Both the position numbers and the translations under genes were made by a program. Source: Castellaniella denitrificans (GTDB lineage Bacteria > Pseudomonadota > Gammaproteobacteria > Burkholderiales > Burkholderiaceae_B). Taken from it: a DNA stretch of 64,000 bases. Under the pieces are notes generated by a model, which saw only the letters and a program-made list of their open reading frames with translations, ran no database searches and had not been told where the DNA came from. The stretch spans positions 1-64,000 of the forward strand of contig NZ_JAPWHE010000011.1 of the NCBI RefSeq assembly GCF_027214045.1. Reading direction: 5' to 3'. Shown piece by piece: positions 4,314 through 8,525 of this stretch (its first letter is position 1; each line of letters begins with the position of its first letter).

Positions 4314-5828
4314 ATGACTTCGATCGAAACCCAAGCCCCCGACGAGAACCGTCTGATCGCCGAGCGCCGCGCCAAGCTGGATGCGCTGCGCCAGGCAGGC
4401 CCCGCCTACCCCAACGACTTTCATCCCGACAGCCACGCCGCCGATCTGCACCGGGACTGCGGCGATCTGGACGAGGACACCCTGCAGGCCCAGGGCCGGC
4501 GCGCCCGCGTCGCCGGACGCATGATGCTCAAGCGCATCATGGGCAAGGCCAGCTTCGCCACGCTGCAGGACGCCACAGGGCGCCTGCAGCTGTACCTGGA
4601 CCGGGGCGTGCTCGGCGACGAAACCTATGCCGCCTTCAAGTCCTGGGATATCGGCGACATCGTCGGCGCAGAGGGCGAAGTCTTCAAGACGCGCAAGGGC
4701 GAACTGTCGCTGCGCGTGCAGTCGCTGCGCTTGCTGTCGAAATCCCTGCGCCCCCTGCCCGACAAGTTCCACGGCGTGGCCGACCAGGAACTGCGCTACC
4801 GTCAACGCTACGTGGACCTGATCATGACCGAGGGCACGCGCGAGACGTTCCTCGCCCGCAGCCGCATCGTCACCGCGATCCGCCAGATCATGTCGGAAGC
4901 CGACTTCCTCGAAGTCGAGACCCCGATGCTGCATCCCATACCCGGCGGCGCGGCGGCCAAGCCCTTCATCACCCACCACAACGCGCTGGACATGGAAATG
5001 TACCTGCGCATCGCCCCGGAACTCTACCTGAAGCGCCTGATCGTCGGGGGCTTCGAGCGGGTCTTCGAGATCAACCGCAATTTCCGCAACGAGGGCGTCA
5101 GCCCGCGCCACAATCCTGAATTCACCATGATGGAATTCTATGCGGCGTATACGGACTATCGCTGGCTGATGGACTACACCGAAGCCCTGATCCGCGAAAC
5201 CGCGCGGCGCGTGCGCGGCACCGCGAGCCTGAGTTACCAGGGCCATCCCCTGGATCTGGACCGGCCCTTCGACAGGCTGACCATCGTCGAGGCGATCCTG
5301 AAACACGCCCCCGCTTATGCGCCCGCCCAGCTTCAGGACGAATCGTATCTGCGCGGCGAGCTGAGCCGCCTGGGCGCGGACGTGGATGGCCCGGCCCTGG
5401 CCCATGCGGGCCTGGGCGCGCTTCAACTGGCGCTGTTCGAGGAAACCGCCGAATCGAAACTCTGGCACCCGACCTTCATCATCGACTACCCGGTGGAAGT
5501 CTCGCCACTGGCGCGGGCCTCCGACACGCAGGCCGGCATCACCGAACGTTTCGAGCTGTTCGCCTGCGGACGCGAAATCGCCAATGGGTTTTCCGAGCTG
5601 AACGACCCCGAGGACCAGGCCGCACGCTTCCAGGCCCAGGCAGCCGCCAAGGATGCGGGCGACGAGGAAGCCATGTACTATGACGCGGACTACGTGCGCG
5701 CCCTGGAATATGGCATGCCCCCCACGGGGGGCTGCGGCATTGGCATCGACCGGCTGGTCATGATGCTGACCGACAGTCCCAACATCCGCGACGTGATCCT
5801 GTTCCCACACCTGCGGCGCGAGGACTGA
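4314..5828 (+). CDS. lysS: Lysyl-tRNA synthetase, class II
   Basis: This 504-residue cytoplasmic enzyme charges tRNA-Lys. An N-terminal OB-fold anticodon-binding domain (about residues 55-155, including [19 protein letters not shown]) precedes the class II catalytic core. Motif 2 is visible as [15 protein letters not shown] and motif 3 as [19 protein letters not shown] near the C-terminus. The length matches the bacterial LysS family. It lies 15 bp after prfB, the conserved proteobacterial arrangement, and ends at a strong bidirectional terminator shared with the convergent isc cluster. Confidence 0.97.
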
Positions 5829-5842
5829 TTCGCGCTCGAACA

Positions 5843-5880
5843 ATGAAAAAGGCCAGTTCCGTTGGACTGGCCTTTTTCAT
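5843..5880. terminator. Bidirectional terminator between lysS and iscA
   Basis: A perfect 15-bp stem (ATGAAAAAGGCCAGT pairing with ACTGGCCTTTTTCAT) encloses an 8-base loop. The A-run and T-run on its two sides make it an intrinsic terminator in both directions, fitting the convergent genes on either side. Confidence 0.85.
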
Positions 5881-5936
5881 GCCGGACCGGCGGACGGGAG
5901 ACGCTCGTCCGGCCCCCTGTCACGCGCCGCGCATCA

Positions 5937-6260
5937 TCAGACAGTAAAGGATTCCCCGCAGCCGCAAGCGGCCTTTTCGTTGGGGTTGTTGAAACGGAAG
6001 CCCTCGTTCAAGCCTTCGCGGGCGTAGTCCAGTTCCGTACCCTGCAGATAGGGCAGGCTGTCTGACGTCACATACACGCGCGCACCGAACTGCTCGAAGA
6101 CCTGGTCTTCCGCGTCGGGGGCGTCCACGTATTCCAGGTGATAGGACATGCCCGAGCAGCCCGAGGGCTTGACCCCCAGGCGCAAGCCCAGGCCCTTGCC
6201 GCGTTTTTCCAGGTGGCGCTGGATGTGCTCAGCGGCCCGTTGTGTCAGGGTGATTCCCAT
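5937..6260 (-). CDS. iscA: Iron-sulfur cluster assembly protein IscA
   Basis: This 107-residue A-type carrier accepts or delivers Fe-S clusters to client proteins. The three expected ligands are present at the same positions as in E. coli IscA: Cys35 in [10 protein letters not shown], and Cys99 and Cys101 in [10 protein letters not shown]. The ATG at 6260 is supported by GAGG seven bases upstream; the longer frame is the overlapping iscU sequence. Its start lies inside the 3' end of the iscU-like gene (32-bp overlap), implying coupled translation. The operon ends here: hscB, hscA and fdx, which normally follow, are replaced by the convergent lysS. Confidence 0.95.
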
Positions 6261-6684
6261 GATGTGCCTCAGGAACGATGGTTGTCGGTGGAACCGGGTG
6301 TTTATCAGTGTAATCGGCCACGGCCGCGCGGATGGCGTCCTGCGCCAGCAAGGCGCAATGCAGCTTGTCGGGCGCCAGGTCCAGGGCCTGGACAATGTCC
6401 TGGCTGCCGATGGCCAGCGCCTGCTCCAGGTCGCATCCGCGCAGCCATTCGGTCGCAAGCGATCCGGCCGCGATGGCTTCACCGCTGCCGAACGCCCGGA
6501 AACAGGCAGATTCTATGGTAACGCCTTCCAGCCGGATCTGCAGTTTCAGGATCTGACCGAGCTCGGGCGAGCCCACCAACGCGGTGCCCACCCGGGGATC
6601 ATCCACGTCGAAAGAACCGACGTTGCGCGGATGCAGGTAGTGATCCAGGACCCGCGGCCCGTACGACAGCCCTGTCACCGGCAT
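6229..6684 (-). CDS. IscU-like protein lacking two of three cluster-ligand cysteines
   Basis: This 151-residue protein aligns along the whole IscU scaffold ([51 protein letters not shown]). However, the expected ligands are altered. The PACGD segment reads PELGQ (Leu42 in place of Cys37, Gln44 in place of Asp39). The YGCG segment reads FGSG (Ser67 in place of Cys63). Only His109-Cys110 of the final ligand pair is kept. The HscA-recognition motif LPPVK reads LAPDK. The C-terminus carries about 22 extra residues (from PVPPTT) read through the iscA start. ATG 6684 with GGAG just upstream overlaps the iscS end by 10 bp. It should not hold a [2Fe-2S] cluster as canonical IscU does; its role is unknown. 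Confidence 0.88.
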
Positions 6685-7904: not shown

Positions 7905-8426
7905 TCAGGCCGATACGGGCTCCTGGACTGGTGAATCGGCCGCAACCGGCGTGATCGGGATCGTCGCGCGTCCGTTGCGCATGTGGCCGGATTCCTGCCA
8001 TTCGCGCAGCCGTTGCTGGTCGACCAGGTCCTGCAGCGAAACCGAGTCCAGGTATTCCAGCATTTTACGACTCAAAGTCGCCCACAGGTCGTGGGTCATG
8101 CATTTGCCGGTATGGCCGTTGCGACCGATGTCGCAGTTTTCCTTGCCCCCGCAACTGGTGGCGTCCAGCGGCTCGTCGACGGCGAAGATGATGTCCGCCA
8201 CAGAGATGTCGCGCGCATGCCGGGCCAGCGTGTAGCCGCCGCCCGGACCACGCACGCTGTCGACCAGCTCATGCCGCCGCAGCTTGCCGAACAACTGTTC
8301 CAGGTAGGACAGGGAAATATTCTGGCGCGCGCTGATGGCGGCCAGCGTCACTGGTCCGCTGTGATGGCGCAAGGCCAGATCGATCATTGCCGTGACGGCG
8401 AAACGTCCCTTGGTCGTCAAACGCAT
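7905..8426 (-). CDS. iscR: Fe-S cluster-sensing transcriptional regulator IscR (Rrf2 family)
   Basis: This 173-residue DNA-binding protein represses the isc operon when it carries a [2Fe-2S] cluster. The N-terminal winged helix starts MRLTTKGRFAVTAMIDLAL, with Glu43 in SYLEQLF, the residue that discriminates DNA half-sites in E. coli. The cluster ligands are Cys92, Cys98, Cys109 and His112 (CGGKENC, then KCMTHDLW). The loop between the second and third cysteines is five residues longer than in E. coli. It is the first gene of the iscRSUA unit, and two good type 1 IscR sites lie upstream. Confidence 0.97.
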   Translation of the reverse strand: MRLTTKGRFAVTAMIDLALRHHSGPVTLAAISARQNISLSYLEQLFGKLRRHELVDSVRGPGGGYTLARHARDISVADIIFAVDEPLDATSCGGKENCDIGRNGHTGKCMTHDLWATLSRKMLEYLDSVSLQDLVDQQRLREWQESGHMRNGRATIPITPVAADSPVQEPVSA

Positions 8427-8469: not shown

Positions 8470-8494
8470 ATACCCGACTATTCAAGTCAAGTGT
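8470..8494. promoter_or_regulatory. IscR type 1 operator, proximal
   Basis: The 25 bases begin ATACCCGACT and end AAGTCAAGTGT. They agree with the E. coli type 1 IscR consensus (halves of the form GACT and AGTC with flanking pyrimidine and purine runs) at 22 of 25 positions by my count. On the minus strand the site contains TTGACT, a plausible -35 element for iscR, so occupancy would block the promoter. Confidence 0.75.
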
Positions 8495-8500
8495 ACCTCC

Positions 8501-8525
8501 TTACCCGACTAAAACACTCGGTTTT
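8501..8525. promoter_or_regulatory. IscR type 1 operator, distal
   Basis: A second, weaker copy starts TTACCCGACTAAAACACTCG and lies 31 bp upstream of the first copy relative to iscR. It shares the CCCGACT half-site exactly. The spacing of nearly three helical turns puts both sites on the same DNA face. A further short dyad, TTGACCCTTGTCAA at 8547-8560, lies beyond it. Confidence 0.6.

Follow-up and report, generated by a model that had tools for sequence, protein, structure and literature searches.

An IscU-like protein without Cys37 persists in the shortened isc operons of SUF-carrying relatives of Castellaniella

IscU shows very high conservation, and its definition is taken to include its three cysteines. 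In the window, by which we mean the whole stretch of 64,000 nucleotides of a Castellaniella denitrificans contig that was analysed, an iscU-like gene occupies its customary place between iscS and iscA and encodes a protein with two of these cysteines replaced. The locus raises the question of whether such a protein can still act as a scaffold and, if not, why its gene is still there. The strongest statement that comparison of related loci allows is that genomes with SUF and without HscBA still have IscU at its usual position in the operon, but lacking C37 in every genome read (residue numbers are those of E. coli unless noted).

Results

The window protein and its operon

The iscU-like gene is read from the minus strand, with its ATG start at 6684, its stop codon at 6231-6229 and no frameshift; a plus-strand reading of 6229-6684 is unrelated to IscU. 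Pfam NifU_N matches the product over the whole domain (E=2.4e-33), and the best NCBIfam model is iscU (TIGR01999), at 135.2 bits and under its cut-off of 192.4. A misnamed SufU was considered and rejected, as the SufU model (SUF_scaf_2) gives 27.9 bits against a cut-off of 92.5 and the true SufU of this genome sits in the suf operon elsewhere. Among PDB sequences the nearest is that of E. coli IscU (3lvl_A), with ~50% identity across the aligned domain, and the predicted model of the window protein has the IscU fold (mean pLDDT 83), its nearest solved structures being ISCU in Nfs1-ISCU and E. coli IscU in IscS-IscU.

In the window protein's own numbering, L42, Q44, S67, LAPDK 103-107 and H109-C110 correspond to E. 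coli positions 37, 39, 63, 99-103 and 105-106. Alignment to E. coli IscU bears out every one of these residues as given in the original prediction: C106 is left of the three ligand cysteines C37, C63 and C106, Gln stands in place of Asp39, and LPPVK, the site for HscA in IscU, is altered. A Cys is present at position 57. The C-terminal tail (6229-6260) reaches 32 nt into iscA and is longer than in most relatives, ending in a low-confidence model segment with HHGNH; a long tail is also found in G001 and G008, and the remaining seven of ten Castellaniella IscU proteins have 127-129 aa.

Table 1. Features of the isc locus in the window, with residues in E. coli numbering
Feature	Position	Strand	Remarks
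iscU-like gene, 151 aa	6229..6684	minus	C37 to L, D39 to Q, C63 to S, LPPVK to LAPDK; H105-C106 kept
iscS, cysteine desulfurase, 404 aa	6675..7889	minus	K206 and C328 intact
iscA, A-type carrier, 107 aa	5937..6260	minus	three cysteines intact
iscR, Rrf2-type regulator	7905..8426	minus	C92, C98, C104 and H107 equivalents intact
lysS	4314..5828	plus	convergent, just downstream of iscA
IscR type-1-like site, upstream of iscR	8470..8494	minus	22 of 25 consensus positions; best of 50 shuffles 19

The genes are tightly packed (Table 1), with overlaps of 10 nt between iscS and iscU and of 32 nt between the 3' end of iscU and the start of iscA. In relatives that retain hscBA-fdx, these genes are placed between iscA and lysS; the window isc locus itself has no fdx. 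The genome as a whole (G000; 3.1 Mb, completeness 100) has an isc locus of iscR-iscS-iscU-iscA only, and genome-wide searches found neither HscB nor CyaY, nor any HscA that passes the family cut-off. The second, canonical iscU that the original prediction had suggested looking for is not there either: SufU, within sufB-C-D-S-U-T, accounts for the sole further NifU_N match of this genome. With two of the ligand cysteines, Asp39 and LPPVK altered and HscA/HscB not found, the window protein is unlikely to be a normal scaffold, as had been proposed from the gene itself; the suggestion that it partners IscA in a reduced pathway, however, overlooks the complete SUF operon, the likely cluster builder. 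TusA is present, as in 60 of the 61 genomes searched for it; the one without a match belongs to a different family and is 68% complete.

Named relatives at 97% (UBA6218), 83% (C. defragrans DSM 12141) and 66% (FW021_bin.21) put the genome in Castellaniella. UBA6218 (G008, locus L033) shows the same L/Q/S at 37/39/63 and the isolate DSM 12141 (L034) shows L/Q/C, so that sequencing or assembly error is unlikely to have produced these residues. The C63S change is present in two assemblies (G000 and G008), and the C37 change is found in the isolate, in single-contig genomes (G002, G010, G011, G027) and in MAGs alike, leaving error with a negligible chance of being the explanation.

Distribution across the family

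We surveyed 229 genomes of the same family (f1; Castellaniella is placed in the Alcaligenaceae in NCBI taxonomy), each at least 90% complete. SufB/D was found in 64 and HscB in 173. HscB occurs in all 165 genomes without SUF, and the 64 SUF-carrying genomes divide into 8 with and 56 without HscB, a partition derived from complete lists of matching genomes and then recounted. CyaY, present in 172 of the 229, follows the same division, being found in 8/8 of the SUF-carrying genomes with HscB and in 1/56 of those without (G237). All 229 genomes match the IscU model; because SufU can match it too, the isc loci of all 56 were read directly. Together with G008 and G009, which are less than 90% complete and lie outside the 229, these give 58 derived loci, for comparison with 28 hscBA-containing loci, 8 of them with SUF, that were read residue by residue from among the 173 HscB-containing genomes. 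In these 86 isc loci, G060 is represented once (its contig L036 was counted once), and G020, which has hscBA, is not included, since its iscU reads as two pieces. The latter gene (L112, about 5703-6073) gives two tblastn pieces, owing to a frameshift or an assembly error.

All 58 derived loci contain iscR, iscS, iscU and iscA, and none contains hscA, hscB or fdx in the DNA downstream of iscA (at least 870 nt, median 4.5 kb). Fdx and IscX were sought at the locus only, and the genome-wide searches covered HscA and HscB. Beyond the 58, no IscU match was found in G030, a 75% complete SUF-carrying genome of the same family, nor was any match to the window IscU found in eight of eight SUF-carrying Burkholderiales of other families that have no HscA above cut-off. 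Complete loss of iscU therefore seems a possible outcome. The sole NifU_N protein in four of those eight is SufU beside suf; the other four (G064, G065, G075 and G082) have, in addition to the SufU near suf, a second NifU_N match (35-81 bits) of ambiguous type.

Which residues are lost

C37 is kept in 0/58 loci without hscBA and in 28/28 loci with hscBA, and the latter all keep D39, C63, H105 and C106 as well. In place of C37 the derived proteins have L (13), T (13), Q (12), E (9), S (4), N (2), D (2) or, once each, V, I and G. Retention at the other positions is 10 for D39 (lost in 48/58), 48 for C63, 56 for H105 and 50 for C106, with C63 and C106 both kept in 45. Of the 77 positions that do not vary among the 28 canonical proteins, C37 has the lowest retention in the derived set and D39 the next lowest, against a mean of 0.68. 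The ten proteins without C63 include that of the window genome, its near twin in G008 and that of G006, of the same genus, which has no cysteine at all; cysteine is likewise entirely absent from IscU of G188, G251 and G252. The original prediction had envisaged a Leu/Ser clade tied to iscRSA without hscBA. The tie to an iscRSUA operon without hscBA holds, whereas the Leu/Ser pair does not, and because Ser63 occurs in only 4/58 (window genome, G008, G041 and G189) the group is defined by loss of Cys37 instead. The one genome of the 56 with a CyaY match, G237 (locus L133), keeps D39 and C63 with Leu already at position 37 and looks like an early stage.

New cysteines are frequent near C63. At least one is found at position 57, 65 or 66 in 38/58 proteins, 32 of which also keep C63 and C106. 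Position 57, mostly Arg in canonical proteins, is Arg in 31, Cys in 26 and Gln in 1 of the derived set; Cys57 is found in 9/10 Castellaniella and in 1/28 canonical proteins, and Cys65 and Cys66 in 16/58 and 5/58 derived ones. On the tree described below, position 57 changes between Cys and non-Cys 12 times. As Arg (CGY) becomes Cys (TGY) by a single transition, mutational bias may contribute, and the spread of Cys57 may reflect either selection or this mutational path.

Repeated loss

A tree of the 86 genomes was obtained by a quick search from IscR and IscS, plus LysS where in range (49/86 rows); because IscR and IscS come from the same operon, it does not amount to an independent species phylogeny. 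On it, hscBA loss requires five changes, at least three of them forced by starred branches, and the same numbers apply to C37 loss; the two losses coincide in all 86 rows. Position 37 switched residue at least 23 times, and Cys is found there in no hscBA-less row read. Contrasts occur within genera, between G025 and G189 in g17 and between G235 and G037 on one side and G236, G237 and G238 on the other in g29. An independent-pair test on starred branches found three pairs, all concordant (p 0.25), which are too few for significance.

Maintenance and selection

The iscU frame is open, with a proper start and stop, in 58/58 derived loci from 18 genera. One of 30 derived pairs gave no finite dS; in the other 29, dN/dS of iscU ranges over 0.05-0.35 with a median of 0.10, and nine hscBA-containing pairs have 0.01-0.12. 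The pairs (30 derived, 9 hscBA-containing and 3 mixed) were chosen by hand and lack independence, and dS is saturated in many of them. Measured against those of iscS, the distances of iscU have a median ratio of 1.37 in derived genomes (82 pairs) versus 0.76 in those with hscBA (230 pairs), that is, iscU evolves ~1.8 times faster. These values indicate purifying selection on iscU in the derived genomes that is relaxed but real. The gene is accordingly no simple pseudogene, in line with the original prediction that it is maintained rather than decayed; slow decay is considered below.

The rest of the operon is preserved: K206 and C328 of IscS, the three IscA cysteines and C92, C98, C104 and H107 of IscR are intact in 58/58. 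A type-1-like IscR site precedes iscR in 57/57 derived loci with enough upstream DNA, matching 19-24 of 25 positions of what we take to be the consensus and in each case exceeding the best of its own 50 shuffles. In the window, a second, weaker IscR-like palindrome, read by eye, lies beside the first (8501-8525, minus strand).

The IscS-facing surface

In E. coli, the residues of IscU reported to contact IscS are Y3, Y11, G38, V40, K42, K59-G64 and K103, and K103E is reported to abolish binding (PMC2854127). Most of these contacts are kept in the 58 derived proteins: Y3 in 56, G38 in 58, V40 in 43, K59 in 44, Y61 in 47, G62 in 58, G64 in 49 and K103 in 54, with Y or F at position 11 in 58/58. 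Less well kept are K42 (21/58, with Arg in 27) and T60 (23/58). On the IscS side, retention is 0.73 for the residues that face IscU (18 positions) compared with 0.88 for the protein overall (233 positions), which speaks against an unchanged interface. The TusA face is kept best, at 0.94 (11 positions), and the CyaY patch at 0.72 (7 positions), both sets of positions being in part what we presume them to be; the low value for the CyaY patch is as expected, since CyaY has been lost. With the contacts mostly kept and the IscS face partly eroded, an IscU-IscS interaction is likely, not certain, in most derived lineages. The g38 lineage (four genomes) may have lost it. In g38, K103 and C63 are gone in 4/4 and C106 in 3/4, and dN/dS reaches 0.35. 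Separately, IscS of G046, G251 and G013 has a shortened or divergent C-terminus, whose last residues in E. coli belong to the end that binds IscU.

Discussion

The explanation that we favour, with about even confidence, is that a retired scaffold has been retained to partner IscS in a cell that depends on SUF, where it would tune sulfur flow by docking on IscS without a cluster. In the ancestors of these bacteria, the de novo building of iron-sulfur clusters would have passed to a SufU-type SUF system (sufBCDSUT), after which HscBA, the adjacent fdx, CyaY and the IscU scaffold cycle would have been lost several times. The shortened iscR-iscS-iscU-iscA operon stayed, probably still under IscR feedback, and IscU lost C37 and usually D39 while retaining its fold and most of the residues that touch IscS. 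The sequences themselves show these losses and how they go together, as well as the retention of iscU and the selection on it, whereas reliance on SUF, lack of a bound cluster, binding to IscS and the partition of sulfur are inferred. Given these losses, IscU should not build a [2Fe-2S] cluster. It may now dock on IscS, tune or cap the desulfurase and thereby help to apportion sulfur to TusA-type acceptors and to other destinations; where C63/C106 are kept, the protein may carry persulfide too. IscU and TusA are reported to compete for IscS and to alter its activity in E. coli (PMC11302665), and a role in tuning the sulfur flux of IscS would fit both this competition and the kept contacts. The role of regulatory partner of IscS, which the original prediction had also named, is a possible one. 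A more elaborate proposal, which we regard as doubtful though conceivable, is that, with SUF building the clusters and HscBA gone, Cys37 was selected against (it is found in 0/58, although ten other residues occur at the site), allowing IscU to dock on IscS without forming a dead-end cluster; the protein would then be a dedicated sulfur valve, with partly relocated thiols (Arg57 to Cys, S65C), that arose several times.

The main rival to retention as an IscS partner is that iscU, jobless after the SUF takeover, is a slowly decaying relic whose residual constraint is left over from folding. On this account the frame stays open mainly because iscS, iscU and iscA overlap or abut, such that a broken frame would harm iscA translation. 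The relaxed rate of iscU, the partly eroded face of IscS and the advanced state of g38, with C63, C106 and K103 mostly gone, all fit such decay, as does the lack of an IscU match in G030 and in the eight genomes of other families. Against it stand intact frames throughout 18 genera, a median dN/dS far below 1, and losses that are not evenly spread: C37 and D39 are hit, and Y3, G38, G62, K103 and H105 are almost untouched. Decay hence accounts for the rate and the eroded IscS face, and less well for the aimed loss and the open frames; we consider it a tentative alternative, on the unlikely side. A different job, that of a sulfur relay in which persulfide passes from IscS onto C63/C106, often with the help of a new Cys at 57, 65 or 66, and is handed on as by SufE/SufU, would make sense of the joint retention of C63 and C106 and of the new cysteines. 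As a job shared by the whole group, however, the sulfur relay named in the original prediction is weakened by the four relatives without any cysteine. C63 is missing from the window protein; the residue always lost, C37, is the one for which a role as first acceptor has been proposed in E. coli (PMC2854127, PMC9769115); and mutational bias may contribute to Cys57, which one transition can produce from Arg. Sulfur carriage thus appears possible in many lineages, not all, and as the general explanation we hold it to be improbable. Still less probable, to the point that we give it little weight, is that a cluster or metal is bound through other ligands. His105 is nearly always kept, often alongside both C63 and C106, and new cysteines near C63 are common, but there is no trio of thiols that every member shares, four genomes have none, and hscBA and fdx are missing at all 58 loci, with HscB missing from the 56 genomes searched whole.

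The derived proteins resemble several known systems and differ from each. They share with E. coli IscU (TIGR01999) the fold, the place between iscS and iscA and most IscS contacts, and the window protein shares H105-C106 and about half of its residues; they differ in the loss of C37 throughout and of D39 in most, and the window protein additionally in the loss of C63 and LPPVK in a genome without HscBA or CyaY. SufU, a zinc-dependent sulfur transferase with an IscU-like fold, is a possible model for a desulfurase partner that is not a scaffold, although the window protein scores far lower on the SufU model than on that of IscU (28 versus 135 bits) and has neither the Asp nor more than one of the three Cys. 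The persulfide carriers SufE and TusA would be alike in work, and are likened here by role only, if the work of the window IscU is confined to docking on a desulfurase and carrying sulfur, yet the members without cysteine cannot carry sulfur on a thiol; such carriers are, according to a review, so far described only with SUF (PMC8593673). The same source describes a carrier domain kept after loss of its ligand Cys, the degenerate A-type domain of NfuA (PMC8593673), which is a fused domain, whereas derived IscU is a free protein in its original operon. A similar published locus is that of Alcaligenes faecalis, where iscRSUA is reported next to suf genes (SufR, B, C, D, S, U, T) and isc expression was unchanged between conditions in the transcriptome; the portion of that account available to us makes no remark on IscU cysteines or on hscBA (PMC8629993).

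We found no description of C37-less IscU in the open-licence literature. To be counted as IscU in one census, a protein needed, among other criteria, three Cys together with the sequence recognised by HscA (PMC4440780), a requirement that would have hidden the C37-less group. The derived loci amount to a natural series in which, across all genomes read, C37 and the release chaperones are lost together, and they raise the question of what IscU does for IscS besides cluster building, a contribution that would be masked by its scaffold work in E. coli and mitochondria. In many SUF-carrying bacteria of this one family, C37-less IscU probably does some other job. A gene called iscU need not imply a working ISC pathway: the proteins of 8 of 31 C37-less genomes still exceed the NCBIfam iscU cut-off.
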